Shown: positions 39,346 to 49,840 of the stretch, one piece after another | How the letters are laid out: each line of letters starts with the position of its first letter | How positions within the stretch are numbered: position 1 is the first letter of the stretch | Assembly (NCBI GenBank): GCA_013373205.1 | Contig: JABXIG010000011.1 | Location: forward strand, 62,001-126,000 | Source of the DNA: Methylocystaceae bacterium | Lineage (GTDB): Bacteria; Pseudomonadota; Alphaproteobacteria; Rhodospirillales; Terasakiellaceae | Length of the DNA stretch: 64,000 bases | Direction: 5' to 3' | Made by a program: the position numbers and the translations under genes | The notes under the pieces: model-generated | Seen by the model: the letters and a program-made list of their open reading frames with translations, nothing else | Told to the model about the DNA's origin: nothing | Databases searched by the model: none

Positions 39346-39945
39346 ATGAGCCACGAAATAAGCAAGGCAAAATTGTTGGCAGTGGGACTGCTGGCATGGT
39401 CGTCTTTTTCAAACGGAGCCCTTGCCGAAATGGCAAGTGCTGAGACACTGGCTGCACCTTGTGCAGGGTGTCATGGGCCGAACGGATCAAGCTATGGGCC
39501 GGCAACGCCGACCATTGCGGGAATTACACAGGATTATTTCTTGTCATCTATGAATGATTATATCAGCGGAGAGCGTAAATCGACTGTTATGGGTCGAATC
39601 GCCAAGGGCTACAGTGCTGAAGAAATCAAAGTTATGGCAGACTATTTTGCGAAACAAAAGATCGTGCGTTTCCCGCAGGAAGTGGATGCTGCGCTGGTCG
39701 AAAAAGGCCGCAAGCTGTTCCAGAATTATTGCGAAAAATGTCATGAAGACGATGGTTATCTGGCTGATGGCATCGGTGTTATGGCGGGGCAAACCAAACA
39801 GTACCTCCATTTCATGGTGAATGATTTCTTCTCTGGTGATCGTGAATGGAGCAAGAAGCAGAAAAAGAAAATGCAAGCGTTGATGGATGATCATGGTCAG
39901 GAAGGCTATGACGCCGTTCTTGATTATATGGCCTCAAAGAAATAA
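39346..39945 (+). CDS. fccA: Diheme cytochrome c, FccA/SoxE-type sulfide dehydrogenase subunit
   Basis: A 199-residue exported protein: signal peptide to about residue 27 (ending GALA), then two c-type heme motifs, CAGCH (about residues 39-43) and CEKCH (about 130-134). Its directly following neighbour is an FCC-type flavoprotein, so it is most likely the diheme cytochrome of flavocytochrome c sulfide dehydrogenase, receiving electrons from FAD. A very good ribosome site (AAGGGGGG) precedes the ATG. Alternative: a generic c-type cytochrome of the sox cluster (SoxE). Confidence 0.8.
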   Translation: MSHEISKAKLLAVGLLAWSSFSNGALAEMASAETLAAPCAGCHGPNGSSYGPATPTIAGITQDYFLSSMNDYISGERKSTVMGRIAKGYSAEEIKVMADYFAKQKIVRFPQEVDAALVEKGRKLFQNYCEKCHEDDGYLADGIGVMAGQTKQYLHFMVNDFFSGDREWSKKQKKKMQALMDDHGQEGYDAVLDYMASKK

Positions 39946-39963: not shown

Positions 39964-41268
39964 ATGACGAAATTTAATCGCCGGAGTTTCCTCCAGTTAA
40001 CAGGGGCGGCAGCTGTTACAGGTGCTGCTGTTATGGGCGCACCAAGCATTGCAAAAGCTGCGGGCAAAAAAGTTGTGATCGTGGGCGGTGGCCCGGCTGG
40101 CGCAACAGTTGCCAATTATCTGCGCATGATGGATATGTCCATTGAAGTCACCTTGATCGAAGCCAACAAAAATTACTATACTTGCTTTATGAGCAATGAA
40201 GTCCTGGGCGGTAAACGTTCTATGGACGGGATCCGTCAGGATTACACCGGCCTTGAAAAAGCAGGTGTCAAAGTCGTTTATGATATGGTTACCGGCATTG
40301 ACGGGGCGAAAAAGAAAGTCATGACCAAGGGCGGTCAGACGTTTGAATATGATCGTTGTGTTGTTGCACCAGGTGTAGATTTCAAGTTTGACAAATATGA
40401 AGGCCTGGATGCCGAGGTGGCGGAAACGAAAATTCCACATGCCTGGAAAGCTGGTCCGCAAACGGCACTGCTGCGCAAACAGATTGAAGCCATGCCTGAC
40501 GGTGGTGTGTTCACCATGGTGGCTCCACCCAATCCGTTTCGCTGCCCCCCTGGACCGTATGAACGTGTTAGTCTGATTGCGAATTATTTCAAAAAGCACA
40601 AACCTAAATCCAAGATTTTGATTGTGGATCACAAGGATAAATTCTCCAAGCAGGGACTCTTTACCCAGGCGTGGAAAAAGTTTTATGGCTTTGGCACCGA
40701 TAATTCCATGATCGACTGGATGAAGGGAACCGACGTCGGGACCATCACGGGGGTCGATGTGGATGGCATGGCTGTGACCACTGACTTTGAAGAATATAAA
40801 GGCGATGTGATCAACTTTATTCCGGCGCAAAAAGCAGGACCAATCGCTTTTGCAGCAGGTCTGACTGATGATACGGGCTGGTGTCCTGTCGATAAGGTCA
40901 GCTTTGAATCGAAAATGGTGCCGGGTATTCACGTTCTGGGTGATGCGGCCATTGCAACCAAAATGCCGAAATCCGGTTATGCGGCCAATTCACAAGGTAA
41001 AGTGACGGCTTCTGCCATTGCAGCCGCCTTGAATGGCAAGACACAGGGTGTGCCGTCTTATGTGAATACTTGTTATTCCATCGCGGCAGATGACTGGGCT
41101 TTCTCGGTTGCTGCTGTCTATAAATATGACAAGGAACAAGACATTATCGCTGGCGTTAAAGGCGCAGGCGGTTTGTCACCTATGGATGCCTCGGCTGAAG
41201 ATCGTAAGCGCGAAGTTGCTTATGCCTACAGCTGGTACAACAATATCTGTAAAGATATCTGGGGCTGA
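39964..41268 (+). CDS. fccB: FccB/SoxF-type flavoprotein, sulfide dehydrogenase FAD subunit
   Basis: A 434-residue protein with a Tat signal (RRSFLQLTGAAAVTGAAVMG at residues 6-25, giving export of a folded FAD protein). An FAD Rossmann motif VVIVGGGPAGATVANYL starts at about residue 36. CP/CPPGPYE (PFRCPPGPYERV) and the C-terminal GDAAIATKMPKSGYAANSQGK are hallmarks of the flavocytochrome c sulfide dehydrogenase flavoprotein. It would oxidise sulfide (or sulfur-carrier thiols) and pass electrons to the diheme cytochrome upstream. It follows fccA by 18 bases and is followed by a terminator-like stem. Confidence 0.87.
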   Translation: MTKFNRRSFLQLTGAAAVTGAAVMGAPSIAKAAGKKVVIVGGGPAGATVANYLRMMDMSIEVTLIEANKNYYTCFMSNEVLGGKRSMDGIRQDYTGLEKAGVKVVYDMVTGIDGAKKKVMTKGGQTFEYDRCVVAPGVDFKFDKYEGLDAEVAETKIPHAWKAGPQTALLRKQIEAMPDGGVFTMVAPPNPFRCPPGPYERVSLIANYFKKHKPKSKILIVDHKDKFSKQGLFTQAWKKFYGFGTDNSMIDWMKGTDVGTITGVDVDGMAVTTDFEEYKGDVINFIPAQKAGPIAFAAGLTDDTGWCPVDKVSFESKMVPGIHVLGDAAIATKMPKSGYAANSQGKVTASAIAAALNGKTQGVPSYVNTCYSIAADDWAFSVAAVYKYDKEQDIIAGVKGAGGLSPMDASAEDRKREVAYAYSWYNNICKDIWG

Positions 41269-41396: not shown

Positions 41397-41939
41397 GTGT
41401 TCAAATGGTTGAAGAAAAGTGGTGTCAAACTAGCACTGGCTATAGGGTCTGTGACGACATTGATGGCCATTATCGTTGGGGGTGTGGTCATTGAGGGGAC
41501 AAATTCGCTGGAATTTTGTGTGTCCTGTCATTCCATGGAACAGACGGTCTATCAGGAATATAAAAAGAGCCTGCACTACAAGAATGAATATGGCGTGCGC
41601 GTGGAATGTCCCGATTGCCATGTCCCTCAGGTCTATCCTGACAAGTTGATCGCCAAGGTGATTGCGGCCAAGGATGTGTTGCATGAAATTCTAGGGACCA
41701 TTGATACCAAAGAAAAATTTGAAACCCATCGCCTGCGCATGGCTGAACGGGTTTGGGCCAAGATGGAAGCTACAGAATCGCGTGAATGTCGTAACTGCCA
41801 TTCATTCGATGCAATGGATTTGGAAGAAATGGGCCGTCGGGCACAGCGCAAACATCCCCAAGCCATGCAGGATGGCAAGCATTGTATCCAGTGTCACAAA
41901 GGTGTGGTTCATGAATTGCCAGAAGATTATGAAGATTAA
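41397..41939 (+). CDS. NapC/NirT-family membrane-anchored tetraheme cytochrome c
   Basis: A 180-residue cytochrome starting with GTG (ribosome site GGGAG ten bases upstream). One N-terminal membrane anchor (about residues 10-33) is followed by four CxxCH motifs: CVSCH, CPDCH, CRNCH and CIQCH. NapC/NirT relatives exchange electrons between the quinone pool and periplasmic cytochromes. Here the next gene encodes a soluble tetraheme cytochrome, so it probably links that protein to the membrane. Direction of electron flow (to or from quinone) cannot be read from the sequence. Confidence 0.87.
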   Translation: MFKWLKKSGVKLALAIGSVTTLMAIIVGGVVIEGTNSLEFCVSCHSMEQTVYQEYKKSLHYKNEYGVRVECPDCHVPQVYPDKLIAKVIAAKDVLHEILGTIDTKEKFETHRLRMAERVWAKMEATESRECRNCHSFDAMDLEEMGRRAQRKHPQAMQDGKHCIQCHKGVVHELPEDYED

Positions 41940-41959: not shown

Positions 41960-43282
41960 ATGATCGCACGATTTTTTAAACAATGCACAGTGGCTCTGTT
42001 GGTTTTACTGATAATACAAGGGGCACAAGCCGAAGAACAGGTACTGGACACTGATGCCTCCATCGCACGTGGCGGGCGCTTATATAATGATTGGATGATC
42101 GAACTGGATGATCGGGCACCGGAAAAAGCCAATCCGAATTTTACCAAAAAAACAGATGACATTGCCCAAAGCTGGCGTTGTGTCAGTTGTCATGGTTGGG
42201 ATTATAAGGGGGCGAATTCTCAAAAAGGGATTATGGGAAAAAGCGGGGCAAATCCAGCTGATATTGTTGCTGTGTTAGAGGATGACAAACACGGTTATCA
42301 GGAATATCTGGATCGCGATGACCTGCTAGATATCGCCCGTTTTATATCCCTTGGCATGGTTGATATGGATGACATGGTGGAACGCGCCACCGGAAAAGCC
42401 AAAGCCTATGGTCTTGCGCAACGTCCCTTTTTTGAAACGGTTTGTGCCATGTGCCATGGCGCAGAAGGCCAAAACCTGCCGGGTGTTTCCTTAGGGCGTT
42501 TTGCCAATCAACAACCCTATCTGACGCTTCATTCTATCTTCAACGGACATCCCGGTGCAGTCATGCCGTCTTTGCGGGCTTTTGATAATAAAAAGCTGGT
42601 GAAGCTTCTGGCCTATATGCAGACCCTGCCGGAAAATTCTTCGCTGGTTTCCATCGTGCGTGGTGGGCGTTTGTATGACAACTGGTTTATGGAAACAGGG
42701 CGCGACGTGCCTGAAGGCTTGCATCCGGCTTATCCGTCCTACCGAAAGGTGGAAGTGAAGGAAAAACAAACATGGCTGTGCATGGAATGTCATGGTTGGG
42801 ATTATCGCGGAAAAGACGGGCACTACAGTGAAGGTAAACATTTCACCGGGATTATTGGGATCACGGCCAAACAGGGTGCAGATGTAAAAGAGCTGATTAA
42901 AATTTTGCGCAATGATACCCATGGCTATGGCGCGTTACTTTCACGAACGGACTTGCTGGATTTGGCCAATTTTGTGCGCGAAGGGCAAGTGGATATGGAT
43001 GATTATATCGACCCCAAAAGCAAAAAAGCCAAAGGCAATTATCAGGAACATGCCAAATTCTATCCCACCCTTTGTGGCAATTGTCATGGGGTGAAAGGAC
43101 GTGCCATTCGCACTATGGGGGCATTGGGCCGTGTGGCGAATGATGATCCGTGGAAAGCACTGCACAAAATCTTAAACGGTCACCCGGCTGAAGAGATGCC
43201 GGCATGGCGATCATTGGATAAAGAAACAATTAAAGACTTGATGGGTTTTATTCAGGCCCTACCTAAAAAGAAACGGTCTTAA
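41960..43282 (+). CDS. Tetraheme cytochrome c made of two duplicated diheme units
   Basis: A 440-residue exported protein (signal peptide to about residue 24, ending AQA). Two homologous halves, about residues 30-225 and 230-435, each contain RGGRLY-(N/D)-W, a CxxCHGWDY heme motif, and a later CxxCHG heme motif: CVSCHGWDYKG, CAMCHG, CMECHGWDYRG and CGNCHG. Further repeated features are DLLDIARF/DLLDLANF, VDMDD, NGHP and MP-LR/MP-WR. It follows the NapC-like gene by 20 bases and precedes the YqeB-family gene by 17, so all three are one operon. I know no named family; an electron carrier in sulfur oxidation is inferred. Confidence 0.82.
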   Translation: MIARFFKQCTVALLVLLIIQGAQAEEQVLDTDASIARGGRLYNDWMIELDDRAPEKANPNFTKKTDDIAQSWRCVSCHGWDYKGANSQKGIMGKSGANPADIVAVLEDDKHGYQEYLDRDDLLDIARFISLGMVDMDDMVERATGKAKAYGLAQRPFFETVCAMCHGAEGQNLPGVSLGRFANQQPYLTLHSIFNGHPGAVMPSLRAFDNKKLVKLLAYMQTLPENSSLVSIVRGGRLYDNWFMETGRDVPEGLHPAYPSYRKVEVKEKQTWLCMECHGWDYRGKDGHYSEGKHFTGIIGITAKQGADVKELIKILRNDTHGYGALLSRTDLLDLANFVREGQVDMDDYIDPKSKKAKGNYQEHAKFYPTLCGNCHGVKGRAIRTMGALGRVANDDPWKALHKILNGHPAEEMPAWRSLDKETIKDLMGFIQALPKKKRS

Positions 43283-43299: not shown

Positions 43300-44208
43300 A
43301 TGAACGAAAGAACAACAACCACTGAAAGCCGAAAGCACCCGATCTGCGTGATCCGGGGTGTCAGCGATGTGGGCTCGGCCATTGCCTGGAAACTGTTTCA
43401 CGCCGGTTTTATTGTGGTCAGTCACGAAAACAGACAGCCACGCACCATTCGACGCAAAATGGCGTTCTGTGACGCGTTATGGACCGGGGAAGCCGTTCTG
43501 GATGGGTTAAAGGCTCACCGTGTGGATCGACTGGAAGATGTGATGAAAGTTGCAAGCCCCAGACAATCGATTGCGCTTTATGCCGGACCATTTGATGCTT
43601 TGTTGGATCAGGTGAAACCAGATGTGATTGTTGATGGCCGCATTCATAAGTTTTCTACTGTTGAAACGTTAAAAGACCGTGCGCCTTTGACCATCGCAGT
43701 TGGCCCCTGCTTCGAAGCTGGCGTGCATGTGGACTATGTGGTCGAAAGTTGTTGGGGGGATGATCTGGGCAGAGTGATCAGCCAAGGATCAGCGGTTGAA
43801 CCTGTGCCTGTCCCGCCGCGACTGAATGGTGTGGGCTGGGAAAGGTTTGTTCGATCTGACCGTGCCGGTCGTTTTGAAAGTGATCTCAGCATTGGTGAAT
43901 ATGTTGTTGCTGATCAGATCATAGGTCATCTGGATGGTCATGCGGTGAAAGCGAGTATTGCGGGCTATTTACGCGGTTTGCTTCATCCCGGCTTAAGTGT
44001 GCTCAAAGGTGAAAAATTGTGCGAAATCGACCCGCGGGAAAATCAGGCACATTTTATTGGTTTGGCGGAAAGGCCAAGTGAAATTGCCGATGGAGTCTTG
44101 CGTGTGGCTTGTCAATTTATGCAAGTTTACACTGTGAAAAAAGGGGTAAAAGATCATTTATATCAATATGATCCGGAATTATTAACAAATAATATAAAAA
44201 TAAGTTGA
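43300..44208 (+). CDS. YqeB/EF2563-family molybdoenzyme maturation protein
   Basis: A 302-residue cytoplasmic protein. It has the N-terminal Rossmann-like region VIRGVSDVGSAIAWKLFHAGFIVVSHENRQPRTIRRKMAFCDALWTGEAVLDGL, then KPDVIVDGRIHK, TIAVGPCFEAGVHVDYVVES, DDLGRVISQGSA and IAGYLRGLLHPGLSVLKGEKL. These blocks fit the EF2563 / YqeB family, known from selenium-dependent molybdenum hydroxylase gene clusters, where it is thought to serve enzyme maturation. Here it sits between cytochrome genes and soxX in the sulfur island, with no molybdenum hydroxylase visible. A role in maturing SoxC (a molybdenum enzyme) is an inference. Confidence 0.78.
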   Translation: MNERTTTTESRKHPICVIRGVSDVGSAIAWKLFHAGFIVVSHENRQPRTIRRKMAFCDALWTGEAVLDGLKAHRVDRLEDVMKVASPRQSIALYAGPFDALLDQVKPDVIVDGRIHKFSTVETLKDRAPLTIAVGPCFEAGVHVDYVVESCWGDDLGRVISQGSAVEPVPVPPRLNGVGWERFVRSDRAGRFESDLSIGEYVVADQIIGHLDGHAVKASIAGYLRGLLHPGLSVLKGEKLCEIDPRENQAHFIGLAERPSEIADGVLRVACQFMQVYTVKKGVKDHLYQYDPELLTNNIKIS

Positions 44209-44230
44209 ATTTTAGATTATTATAATATTA

Positions 44231-44246
44231 GAATGTTTGAGTATTC
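44231..44246. promoter_or_regulatory. Weak inverted repeat before soxX, candidate operator
   Basis: GAAT (44231-44234) and ATTC (44243-44246) are separated by eight bases. Sulfide-responsive ArsR-type repressors of alphaproteobacteria (SqrR/BigR) use short palindromes of comparable size, but the orientation differs from the ATTC-N8-GAAT I recall for SqrR. No regulator gene is nearby. Confidence 0.2.
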
Positions 44247-44325: not shown

Positions 44326-44829
44326 ATGATTTATCATATGTTGAAACGACAAGTGGCGTGTGCTGCTGGTTGTGCGGCACTGGTTGGTGTTGTTTCTGGC
44401 GCCTCTTCTGCCCTGGCCGAAGGTAGCCTTGAACGTGTAACGGAACCAAATCTCAAGCCTTACACAATTGTGGATGGGACTTCGATCCCCCAATCATTTA
44501 CCGGTAAAGCCGGAAATGCGGCCAATGGCAAAAAGCTGTTTGTCCATCGCAAAAAAGGGAACTGTCTGACCTGTCATACAGCCCCGATCCCTGAAGAAGA
44601 ATTCCATGGTCAGGTTGCACCGGATCTGGATGGTGTCGCAGATCGTATGAGCGAAGGTGAAATTCGCCTGCGTCTGGTTAATCCCAAGCTGGTTAATCCG
44701 GATACCCCCATGATGGCTTATTACAAGACCCATGGACTTCATCAGGTAAAGAAAAGTTTTATCGGAAAACCGATGTTGAACGAGCAGGAACTCGAAGACA
44801 TCGTTGCTTATCTGATGACGCTAAAATAA
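44326..44829 (+). CDS. soxX: SoxX, monoheme cytochrome c subunit of SoxXA
   Basis: A 167-residue exported cytochrome with signal peptide (about residues 1-31, ending ALA) and one heme motif, NCLTCHTAP (about residues 84-92), plus PDTPMMAYYKTHGLHQV carrying the axial Met, and VAYLMTL at the end. These are SoxX hallmarks. With SoxA it couples thiosulfate to the SoxY carrier cysteine in the periplasm. It opens the soxXYZABCD set; the excellent GGGAGG ribosome site supports the ATG at 44326. A hairpin lies immediately upstream. Confidence 0.93.
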   Translation: MIYHMLKRQVACAAGCAALVGVVSGASSALAEGSLERVTEPNLKPYTIVDGTSIPQSFTGKAGNAANGKKLFVHRKKGNCLTCHTAPIPEEEFHGQVAPDLDGVADRMSEGEIRLRLVNPKLVNPDTPMMAYYKTHGLHQVKKSFIGKPMLNEQELEDIVAYLMTLK

Positions 44830-46729: not shown

Positions 46730-46805
46730 TTAATGAGACGGAGTCTATAACTGAAATGTCAATTTCAGGTTGATTTTTGAAACTATTTTTAGAAGGCCAT
46801 GATTG

Positions 46806-48494
46806 ATGCTTTCGAGACGTGATTTTCTTCAAGTGGCTGCAGCAAGTGCAGCAATGCTCCCGGCAGCGGGATCGCTAGGTCATGCGGCCAGCGCCCAAAA
46901 ATTGACGCAGGAAGAATTGTTGAAGTTTGACACAAAAGGTCAGGTGACCTTGTTGAACTTTACCGATATCCATGCGCAACTGAAGCCGCTTTATTTCCGT
47001 GAACCTTCGGTCAACTTAGGTGTGGGTGAGGTTCATGGATTGGTTCCGCATATTACAGGTAAAAAACTTTTGGACCATTATGGTCTGGTTGCGGGTACGC
47101 CCAATGCGTATGCCTTTACCTCGGTTGATTTTGCAGAACTGTCCAAACAATATGGTCGTGTTGGTGGGGTTGCCCAAATGGCGACCTTGGTGAAAGCCAT
47201 TCGTGCCGAACGCCCAGATAACACCTTGTTGATCGACTGCGGTGATACGTGGCAGGGGTCTTATACGTCGCTGCAAACCGACGGCGAAGATATGGTCGAT
47301 GTCTGTAACAAGTTGGGTGTGGACGCGATGACGGCCCACTGGGAATTTACCTATGGTCAGGATCGGGTTCAGGAACTTGTTGAAAAATGTAACTTCCCGT
47401 TCTTGTGCGGTAACGTGCAGGATACGGAATGGGAAGAAGACGTCTTTGAACATACTGCTTTCTTTGAAAAGGGTGGGGTGAAGGTTGCCCTGATCGGTCA
47501 GGCGTTTCCTTACACACCTGTTGCCAATCCGCGCTATATGATGCCGGAATGGTCCTTTGGTATTCGTCCTAATAAATTGCAGGAACGTATCGATGATGCC
47601 AAAGCCGAAGGGGCTGAACTGATTGTCGTTGCCTCCCACGATGGCTTTGATGTGGATCGCAAACTGGCGGCGACAGTTTCGGGTATTGATGTCTTGTTGA
47701 CAGGTCACACCCATGATGCGGTGCCAAATGTCATCAAGGTCGGTGATACATTAATGGTCGCTTCTGGGTCGCACGGGAAGTTTCTGGCCCGTCTGGATTT
47801 GAAAGTGGAAAATAAGAAAGTCGTCGATCACAGTTTCAAACTGATGCCGATTTTCTCCGATGTGATTTCACCGGATGCTGAAATGCAGGAACTGGTCGAT
47901 ACAATCCGCGCCCCCCATAAAGGCGTTCTGGAAACAGTGGTCGGTCAGACCGAAGGTTTGCTCTATCGTCGGGGTAATTTCAACGGAACCTTTGACGATT
48001 TGATCTGTCAGGCCTTGTTGGAAGGCCGCGATGCTGAAATTTCCATGTCACCGGGTTTCCGTTGGGGGTCCAGTCTGCCACCGGGGGGATCGATCACTCT
48101 GGAAGATATTTATAACCAGACCGCGATCACTTACCCCAATGCATATCGATCAAAAATGAGCGGAAAAATGATCAAGGACATTTTAGAAGATGTCGCAGAT
48201 AACCTGTTCAATGTGGATCCGTTCTATCAACAAGGCGGGGATATGGTCCGCATTGGCGGTATGGGATACACCATTGATATTCATAAACAGATGGGCAATC
48301 GCATTTCCAATATGGTCCATCTGAAAACCGGAAAACCCATCGAAGCGTCCAAGGAATATGTGGTTGCGGGCTGGGCATCGGTTAATGAAGGGACCGAAGG
48401 ACCACCAATCTGGGATGTGGTGTCCGGTTATGTCGAAAATCATCAAACCATCAACATTCCTGAAAACCAAAATGTAAAAGTTATAGGGGCTTAA
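46806..48494 (+). CDS. soxB: SoxB, dimanganese sulfate thiohydrolase
   Basis: A 562-residue metallophosphatase-fold enzyme. A Tat signal (SRRDFLQVAAASAAMLPAAG, about residues 3-22) exports the folded enzyme. The metal sites show in NFTDIHAQLKP, DCGDTWQGSY (family DGGDTWQGS, here with Cys) and VASHDGFDVD plus LLTGHTHDAVP. SoxB hydrolyses the sulfate group from the SoxY-bound thiosulfonate. ATG at 46806 is three bases after an in-frame TTG; the AAGG ribosome site fits the ATG. It overlaps soxC by one base. Confidence 0.95.
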   Translation: MLSRRDFLQVAAASAAMLPAAGSLGHAASAQKLTQEELLKFDTKGQVTLLNFTDIHAQLKPLYFREPSVNLGVGEVHGLVPHITGKKLLDHYGLVAGTPNAYAFTSVDFAELSKQYGRVGGVAQMATLVKAIRAERPDNTLLIDCGDTWQGSYTSLQTDGEDMVDVCNKLGVDAMTAHWEFTYGQDRVQELVEKCNFPFLCGNVQDTEWEEDVFEHTAFFEKGGVKVALIGQAFPYTPVANPRYMMPEWSFGIRPNKLQERIDDAKAEGAELIVVASHDGFDVDRKLAATVSGIDVLLTGHTHDAVPNVIKVGDTLMVASGSHGKFLARLDLKVENKKVVDHSFKLMPIFSDVISPDAEMQELVDTIRAPHKGVLETVVGQTEGLLYRRGNFNGTFDDLICQALLEGRDAEISMSPGFRWGSSLPPGGSITLEDIYNQTAITYPNAYRSKMSGKMIKDILEDVADNLFNVDPFYQQGGDMVRIGGMGYTIDIHKQMGNRISNMVHLKTGKPIEASKEYVVAGWASVNEGTEGPPIWDVVSGYVENHQTINIPENQNVKVIGA

Positions 48495-49840
48495 TGGGGA
48501 AGCAAAATATGGATAAATCAAAAACAAACAGCCGAGTCATTATGGCTCAGGCAGAAAGGGAAAGCGCACAGCTGGAACCAACCCGTCGCGCGTTTTTGCG
48601 TGGTAGTGCTGCGGGCATTGGTGCGGTTGCTGCCATGGGGGCAACAGGCGGGGCAGCGATGGCCGCGGGCAATCCTGAAAACCTGCCGCCGAACGTTCCG
48701 GAATGGTCAAAAATGTTGGGCGACAGTGTGACGGCAGAACCTTATGGGATCCCGTCCCAATATGAAAAGAATGTACATCGTCGTACGGTGCCGTGGCTGA
48801 CACCGACCGGGGAAAGTTCGATTTCTTTCACACCGATTCAGGACCTACATGGCATCATCACGCCAAATGGTTTGCATTTTGAACGCCACCATGGCGGCTT
48901 TCCGCATATCCCGAAGGAAGATTTCCGCCTGATCGTACATGGCATGGTTAAGAATGAACGGATGTTCACCCTGCAAGACCTGATGCGTTTCCCGCAAGTT
49001 TCGCGCATTCACTTTGTCGAGTGTCCGGCAAACTCGGGCGCGGAATGGCGCGGCGCGCAGATGGATAAGCTTCAATTCACCCACGGGATGGTCAGCTGCT
49101 GTGAATGGACGGGTGTTAAAGTCTCCACCCTCATGGAAGAATTGGGCGTAAAGCCGGGGGCTAAATGGGTGCTGGCAGAAGGCGCCGATGCGGCAGGTAT
49201 GAGCCGGTCTATCCCGATTGAAAAGCTGGGGGATGACTGTATTTTGGCTTATGCTCAAAATGGCGAAATGCTGCGCCCTGAACAGGGCTATCCACTGCGT
49301 CTGATCGTACCGGGTTTTGAAGGCAATATGAACGTCAAATGGATCCGTCGTCTGGAATTTGGCGATCAGCCTTGGCATCACCGCGAGGAAACATCGAAAT
49401 ATACCGACACCATGTATAACGGGAAATCGCGCCGTTTTACTTGGTCGATGGATACAAAATCCGTGATCACGTCACCTTGTCCGGAATATCCGATGTTGGG
49501 GAAAGGCTATCACCAAATCCGGGGTCTGGCCTGGACCGGGGCAGGAAAGATTAAAGGGGTCGATATATCCGTTGATGGCGGCAAAAACTGGATGCCAGCC
49601 CGTCTGGAAGGGCCTGTCTTTAACAAGGCCCTTACACGGTTTGTGTTTGATTGGGAATGGAACGGTCAGGAAGTCTTGCTGCAAAGCCGGGCTTATGACG
49701 AAACAGGCTACGTCCAGCCCACCATTGATCAGTTGCGTGAAATCCGTGGAACATGGTCGATCTATCACAACAATTCCATCCATACATGGTTGGTTCAAAA
49801 AAGCGGGGAGGTTCTTAATGTACAAGTTTCCGGTAAGTAA
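48494..49840 (+). CDS. soxC: SoxC, sulfur dehydrogenase molybdenum subunit
   Basis: A 448-residue sulfite-oxidase-fold molybdenum enzyme. The Tat signal TRRAFLRGSAAGIGAVAAMGA (about residues 31-50) is preceded by a hydrophilic leader, allowing later ATGs (48509, 48542) as starts. The molybdenum-ligand cysteine lies in HFVECPANSGAEW; RLIVPGFEGNMNVKWIRR is another conserved block. With SoxD it oxidises the SoxY-bound sulfane sulfur. It begins inside the soxB stop codon. Its presence predicts full oxidation of thiosulfate to sulfate without sulfur globules. Confidence 0.95.
   Translation: MGKQNMDKSKTNSRVIMAQAERESAQLEPTRRAFLRGSAAGIGAVAAMGATGGAAMAAGNPENLPPNVPEWSKMLGDSVTAEPYGIPSQYEKNVHRRTVPWLTPTGESSISFTPIQDLHGIITPNGLHFERHHGGFPHIPKEDFRLIVHGMVKNERMFTLQDLMRFPQVSRIHFVECPANSGAEWRGAQMDKLQFTHGMVSCCEWTGVKVSTLMEELGVKPGAKWVLAEGADAAGMSRSIPIEKLGDDCILAYAQNGEMLRPEQGYPLRLIVPGFEGNMNVKWIRRLEFGDQPWHHREETSKYTDTMYNGKSRRFTWSMDTKSVITSPCPEYPMLGKGYHQIRGLAWTGAGKIKGVDISVDGGKNWMPARLEGPVFNKALTRFVFDWEWNGQEVLLQSRAYDETGYVQPTIDQLREIRGTWSIYHNNSIHTWLVQKSGEVLNVQVSGK

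Follow-up and report, generated by a model that had tools for sequence, protein, structure and literature searches.

A YqeB-like gene in the sox island of Terasakiella: a selenium-independent family member with a possible molybdenum-related role

Background

What does a gene of the YqeB/EF2563 family, known from clusters for selenium-dependent molybdenum hydroxylases, do in an island of genes for sulfur oxidation (sox)? The question is raised by the 64,000-nucleotide stretch of DNA analysed here (the window), which belongs to the genus Terasakiella and has a yqeB-like gene at 43300..44208 on the forward strand, 17 bases behind the preceding open reading frame (end 43282) and 117 bases ahead of soxX. 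The original prediction was that it encodes a maturation factor for SoxC, or a selenium/sulfur insertion protein put to a new use.

YqeB is one marker gene for calling selenium-cofactor use in genomes. On xanthine and on uric acid, a C. difficile strain deleted for yqeB is reported to behave as selD mutants do (PMC11448449). Zhang et al. 2008 (PMC2432076) set the SelD-linked HP1 (EF2563) subfamily apart from other homologues and suggest extra HP1 functions for organisms without SelD. YqeB homologues with no link to selenium are thus known already, and the sox setting is, as far as we found, what is new: we found no published account of a yqeB-like gene at a sox locus in the open-licence literature, and the part of PMC12453579 available, on Terasakiella and sox or thiosulfate, has nothing on such a gene.

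We compared six Terasakiella genomes, namely the window's own (G000) and G001 to G005, of which G002 is Terasakiella pusilla DSM 6293 and G004 is a metagenome-assembled genome (MAG) labelled Methylocystaceae HF-Dia15.

Results and discussion

A YqeB superfamily protein in a sox island

The open reading frame at 43300..44208 (302 amino acids, ATG start) is a real gene: the same gene is found in the same place in three other Terasakiella genomes at 61–66 % protein identity, which is beyond chance. As originally predicted the protein is homologous to YqeB/EF2563. TIGR03309 (matur_yqeB) is the one NCBIfam family to which it has a match at E 0.001, with 202.6 bits (E 7.1e-60) over essentially the full length (profile positions 2–252 of 256), though under the curated cut-off of 220 bits. 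The full-length match and the shared core columns place it in the wider YqeB superfamily, and we conclude that it is a member of this superfamily outside the curated selenium equivalog. It has no Pfam match to E 0.1, XdhC_C included, and so differs from the XdhC/CoxF maturation factors, which are likewise found in molybdenum-hydroxylase clusters. A sequence search of the PDB revealed no relative (three matches to E 10, the best 0.11). The protein is probably cytoplasmic, since inspection by eye shows no signal peptide.

The gene is preceded on the same strand by a c-type cytochrome with two matched heme domains (39346..39945; PF00034, PF13442) and a flavocytochrome c sulfide dehydrogenase flavoprotein (39964..41268; PF21706, PF09242), which we take to be SoxE-like and SoxF-like respectively, then by a NapC/NirT-type cytochrome (41397..41939; PF03264, 219.1 bits) and, directly upstream, a 440-amino-acid c-type cytochrome (41960..43282; PF13442, PF00034) composed of two similar CHGWDY-type halves with four CxxCH motifs by eye. 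Downstream, again on the forward strand, soxX (44326..44829; TIGR04485, 76.4 bits, cut-off 61), soxB (46803..48494; TIGR04486, 835.5 bits, cut-off 550) and soxC (48494..49840; TIGR04555, 642.3 bits, cut-off 420) all exceed their cut-offs, which bears out the predicted sox setting. The soxY, soxZ, soxA and soxD genes of the island are presumed from gene order; its thioredoxin-, DsrE- and DsbD-like genes are named from Pfam and a rhodanese-like gene from reading.

The claim that SoxC is the only molybdenum enzyme of the window agrees with the profile searches. PF02738 (the xanthine oxidase (XO)-type hydroxylase) has no match in the window's genome, PF00384 has none on the window's contig, and the single other SoxC-profile match in the genome, at 24 bits, lies beyond the window (C53:201179). 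Of the genes in the island that were run through the NCBIfam and Pfam libraries, none came out as a molybdate or tungstate transport gene.

Conservation of the linkage within the genus

A scan of genome contigs found five loci, close relatives in T. pusilla DSM 6293 and HF-Dia15 among them, and a search of 60 relatives yielded YqeB matches in seven, the window's genome counted. Within the genus the carriers are G000, G001, G002, G004 and G005 (four of the five congeners), while G003 has neither yqeB nor SoxC. The two further matches fall in another genus of the order, with 30–31 % identity and XdhC-, YqeC- and MobA-like neighbours; a profile search confirmed YqeC in both genomes.

SoxC is found above cut-off in G000, G001, G002 and G005, and in all four of these genomes yqeB keeps its position in the sox island. 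Confinement of this position to one strain had been named beforehand as grounds for giving up the original prediction, and it is not what we see. In G001, G002 and G005 the order is that of the window from the first cytochrome through the thioredoxin-like genes, apart from a longer overlapping frame in G005 that masked soxY/soxZ in a simple gene caller (soxY itself was seen); the position after the final thioredoxin-like gene is taken by the DsbD-like gene in the other genomes and by an unmatched frame in G001. This shared order suggests that the linkage of yqeB and sox is probably as old as these species.

Selenium

One reading is that this is a genuine selenium-cofactor YqeB acting on SoxC or on another enzyme with labile selenium. 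The homology itself speaks for it, as does a SelD match of 307.5 bits in the window's own assembly, the only one there above cut-off. This SelD gene is located at the end of a 14.5-kb contig (L053, C3, 5000-14510) where the GC content is 0.71–0.74 versus 0.475 in the window, so it may be foreign or contaminating. By eye, the contig also bears DNA-methyltransferase-like genes. SelD is above cut-off in two genomes outside the six, G008 and G053, and in none of G001 to G005; the best score below cut-off in the four other yqeB carriers is 59.7 bits. YqeC (TIGR03172) is absent at E 0.001 from all six Terasakiella genomes and present in G008 and G053.

Within the genus, PF02738 and PF13478 (XdhC_C) are above cut-off in G002 and G004 only, with two matches each per genome; G003 has one XdhC_C match below cut-off (21.8 bits), and the carriers G000, G001 and G005 have no match to either family. 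G000 therefore lacks the combination of an XO-type enzyme and XdhC that marks a selenium-dependent molybdenum hydroxylase. The advice to look for selD or hydroxylase genes elsewhere in the genome thus had a divided outcome, a strong SelD on a doubtful contig end and no XO-type hydroxylase. As a separate observation, a gene set in which XdhC accompanies a fused XO-type protein recurs in similar form in G004 (L055) and G002 (L056), genomes that are without YqeC, and by eye these sets also hold AOR-like and amidohydrolase-like proteins.

To place the protein in its family we built a maximum-likelihood tree with a midpoint root from 23 rows, consisting of ten selenium-type proteins, five from Terasakiella and eight other homologues. 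The ten selenium-type YqeBs (E. coli, Peptoclostridium, Collinsella, Natrinema and six others) form one clade with 100/100 support; SelD-, YqeC- or XdhC-like neighbours are present at the loci of five of these six others, the surroundings of G582 being left out. The five Terasakiella rows form a separate clade (100/100) on a branch of 1.37, and the remaining eight homologues make up a third (91/95). Midpoint-rooted and with three groups, the tree is silent on which two are sisters. By identity, the window protein is at 31–37 % to the selenium-type proteins and 33–40 % to the other selenium-free ones, neither being clearly nearer.

The window protein shares with YqeB/EF2563 (TIGR03309) full-length homology, including G20 and G22 of the glycine-rich start, R51-R52, K117, R225-G226 and D244-P245-R246. 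It differs in lacking the selenium-type motifs, whose columns we defined as those fixed in 9 or 10 of the ten selenium-type rows: A116, N119, G122 and T123 of the AKRN.GT stretch are changed (HKFSTVE), as are R152 and H154 of RGHDLG (WGDDLG) and S256, D257, K258 and A259 of SDKA (AERP). Some replacements are common to the window protein and the other selenium-free homologues, namely W152 (five of eight), E242 (all eight) and E257-R258-P259 (seven, eight and seven of eight). V147 and G153 are selenium-type columns that the window protein retains and the other selenium-free homologues do not.

A score below cut-off, a position outside the selenium-type clade, the lost motifs, the absence of YqeC from the genus and of SelD above cut-off from four of the five carriers, together with the frequent lack of an XO-type hydroxylase, all argue against selenium insertion. 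That part of the prediction is not upheld, and we regard a selenium role as highly improbable.

A resemblance is found to the HP1 'other homologs' of PMC2432076 (e.g. Burkholderia vietnamiensis), which likewise fall outside the SelD-linked subfamily and have no HP2/YqeC partner. They differ in that the Terasakiella proteins are a third lineage in the tree and do not form one group with them.

SoxC maturation

We next considered SoxC as the client. In an evenly drawn set of 385 alphaproteobacterial genomes, with the SoxC and YqeB lists taken as one set, SoxC is above cut-off in 41 genomes and YqeB has a match at E 0.001 or better in six, where one match is a 47-residue fragment. Only the window's genome is on both lists: 40 of the 41 SoxC genomes have no YqeB match, so SoxC has no general need of YqeB. 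YqeB is similarly rare in the phylum set (4 of 398 genomes, the window's own counted, one match being weak). In the other direction, G004 has yqeB and no SoxC. A general SoxC maturation factor, as originally proposed, is refuted by these distributions.

A narrower version is that the protein is an accessory of SoxC or SoxCD in Terasakiella only, where it would load or protect the molybdenum cofactor. The identical position in all four SoxC-bearing congeners favours this version, as do the status of SoxC as the molybdenum enzyme of the locus and the molybdenum theme among selenium-free relatives (see below). Besides the distributions just given, it is weakened by the pace of divergence, YqeB being among the least conserved genes of the island (61–66 % identity) versus 89–93 % for SoxC, and by the chemistry of the client. 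SoxC belongs to the sulfite-oxidase family, whose molybdenum centre has no inserted sulfido ligand, which leaves nothing obvious for a sulfur or selenium insertion step to do. We consider such a dedicated accessory unlikely.

Across the six genomes YqeB accompanies SoxC or XO-type enzymes wherever either occurs (5/5) and is absent from the genome with neither (1/1), a pattern that with six genomes is too small to lean on. PF00384-type enzymes as clients that track YqeB were rejected, given that all six genomes have such proteins, G003 included (lengths judged by eye). PF00384 has three to six matches per Terasakiella genome, some of which, e.g. NuoG-like ones, may bind no molybdenum; the five in G003 suggest that such molybdoenzymes need no YqeB.

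An intact yqeB in a genome that has lost the island

The MAG G004 (90 % complete) has no SoxC-profile match above 20.1 bits. Between the histidine kinase and the gene past the island (L040:10121-12526), yqeB is its only intact island gene. The upstream cytochrome gene has decayed to pieces of 45–54 bases with 78–81 % identity, and downstream a stretch that by eye resembles an insertion sequence is joined by a remnant of the rhodanese-like gene, its final 185 bases, which align at 77 % identity and with one gap of 7 bases. The yqeB frame, at 299 codons with a TTG start as called, is intact amid this deletion, showing that yqeB can persist after its sox neighbours are gone, at least temporarily. 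At 0.26, its terminal branch in the protein tree does not exceed those of the four other Terasakiella proteins (0.26–0.34).

We simulated neutral decay and obtained chances of no stop codon of 0.22, 0.05 and 0.014 at 0.05, 0.10 and 0.15 substitutions per site, a weak test in which the time since deletion is assumed and insertions and deletions are outside the model. Pairwise dN/dS of yqeB is 0.14–0.21 in eight of ten pairs, the two undefined pairs both involving G004; near-saturation of synonymous sites makes these values rough. Simulation and dN/dS agree, weakly, with continued constraint on yqeB.

These results bear on the possibility that yqeB is a passenger left over from a set of molybdenum-hydroxylase genes and lying by chance between sox transcription units, with no role in sulfur oxidation and with XO-type clients where these are present. 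The XO-type and XdhC genes of G002 and G004 and the low conservation of YqeB would fit such a history. The three carriers without XO-type or XdhC_C matches do not fit, as their frame is nonetheless intact and looks constrained, and we judge a passenger to be quite improbable.

Electron transfer or sulfur handling

Alternatively the protein might act in electron transfer for sulfur oxidation or in cytoplasmic handling of sulfur, tied to the NapC and 440-amino-acid cytochrome pair and not to molybdenum. The yqeB frame opens 0–17 bases past the cytochrome stop in the four SoxC-bearing genomes, the true starts being unsettled (in T. pusilla the homologous part of YqeB begins 114 bases past that stop). 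In addition, Cys57 and Cys151 are invariant in the five Terasakiella proteins (Cys151 is not seen in the three Acidobacteria rows), and TauE-type permeases adjoin two selenium-free relatives.

Other observations speak against it. Relatives of the 440-amino-acid cytochrome, half-length and longer, occur in 11 other genomes of the alphaproteobacterial class set, with NapC adjoining in three of the 11 loci; YqeB is near none of them and none of the 11 genomes is YqeB-positive. In G004 the cytochrome gene is decayed while the yqeB frame is intact. We hold this alternative to be rather unlikely. Among these loci, that of G111 (L070) has a longer version of the cytochrome, a 702-amino-acid open frame with three matched stretches, beside a NapC match.

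Some selenium-free relatives adjoin molybdate/tungstate-type transport genes

The surroundings of other selenium-free relatives offer a further clue. In Thermomicrobium roseum an HTH-PBP protein, ModA (130.6 bits, cut-off 62.5) and an ABC permease stand with the YqeB-like gene (196.9 bits to TIGR03309). On Paraburkholderia pBN2 a WtpA-like binding protein, a molybdate/tungstate-type permease and an ATPase accompany the YqeB-like gene (173.3 bits) and TauE. At two of three Acidobacteria loci the YqeB-like gene is accompanied by a binding protein with weak likeness to TupA (45 bits, cut-off 400) and, by eye, a TonB-type receptor; one of the two also has TauE, and the other (L037), judged by eye, has a SelD-like gene in convergent orientation. 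By eye or annotation, no molybdate or tungstate uptake gene is present at G374, at Methylovirgula or at the Acidobacteria locus nzgw, where the contig ends just after the gene; none is present at a Methylocella relative outside the tree.

Transport components of the molybdate/tungstate type are therefore found at four of the seven selenium-free loci examined (the eighth tree row, G602, was left out), suggesting that the YqeB-like protein is probably connected with molybdenum. We found no publication in the open-licence literature that pairs YqeB with molybdate transport. The pBN2 sequence is 100 % identical to a stretch of a B. vietnamiensis G4 plasmid over the aligned 62 %, and is presumably the gene of PMC2432076. 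This copy differs from the window protein in standing beside a molybdate/tungstate-type transporter, not sox, and the two share about 37 % identity.

Predicted structure

An AlphaFold2 model built from six sequences has middling confidence (pLDDT 75, pTM 0.70). It predicts a Rossmann-like N-terminal part (about residues 12–134) and a biotinyl-like barrel (about 175–247). The barrel superposes on biotinyl-type domains, for example BCCP (5gu9) with Z 11.0 and rmsd 1.1 over 65 residues. A looser match, spanning about residues 10–280, is to Rossmann chains of the dehydrogenase type, with Z up to 11.2 and rmsd 3–5 over 132–158 residues among the matches listed, and the best Foldseek E-value among the matches listed for the model is 2.5e-4. 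XdhC is not among the matches listed, which does not count against it as a related fold. That C. difficile YqeB resembles biotin carriers is already noted in PMC11448449. At positions 212–218, in the hairpin, the five Terasakiella proteins read DGHAVKA, DDHPVCA, DEKTILA, DGKTILA and GGKPVLA, and they share no carrier lysine.

A conserved element between yqeB and soxX

An AT-rich element of about 42 bases (44205..44246, forward strand) lies ahead of soxX, beginning with the stop codon of yqeB. It is nearly identical in four Terasakiella genomes and is partly retained in the sox-less MAG G004, and a search of the window for its core with up to three mismatches finds a single occurrence. The TTGAAT-18-TAGAAT arrangement inside it is alone no better than chance (one found versus 1.7 in shuffles). 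From its sequence and conservation we regard the element as a probable candidate for a sox promoter or operator. On this reading the upstream unit would end with yqeB.

Proposed role

Taken together, our tentative preference, held at somewhat less than even confidence, is that the gene encodes a selenium-independent protein of the YqeB superfamily whose accessory function is general, relates to molybdenum (or tungsten) and is not dedicated to SoxC. Such a protein would consist of a nucleotide-binding, Rossmann-like part followed by a biotinyl/lipoyl-like barrel without a conserved carrier lysine, as predicted by the model, and it may bind the molybdenum cofactor or a precursor with no tie to selenium. 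Its gene would be the last of a unit of SoxEF-like, NapC and cytochrome genes, and soxX would be transcribed from its own conserved promoter region. The location in the sox island would then reflect co-expression with the respiration of sulfur oxidation rather than a step of the Sox reaction. The conserved linkage in all four SoxC-bearing congeners suggests some sox-related role and counts against a general molybdenum accessory. Molybdenum handling is nevertheless our likeliest guess for the task of the protein.

A bolder hypothesis, which we think distinctly unlikely, is that a selenium-free branch of YqeB has been recruited to sulfur oxidation, where it handles molybdenum or its sulfur adducts in cells exposed to sulfide and thiosulfate. 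It might, for example, keep molybdenum usable for SoxC and other molybdenum enzymes when thiomolybdates form. If this were true, the ancestral function of YqeB would concern molybdenum, and the use of selenium would be a later speciality.

Conclusions

In Terasakiella a YqeB relative is kept although YqeC is absent, SelD is mostly missing and an XO-type hydroxylase is often missing as well, and homology to this marker alone therefore does not indicate selenium use. With a single gene and a type strain, T. pusilla, the genus offers a simple setting for finding the core function of the YqeB family.
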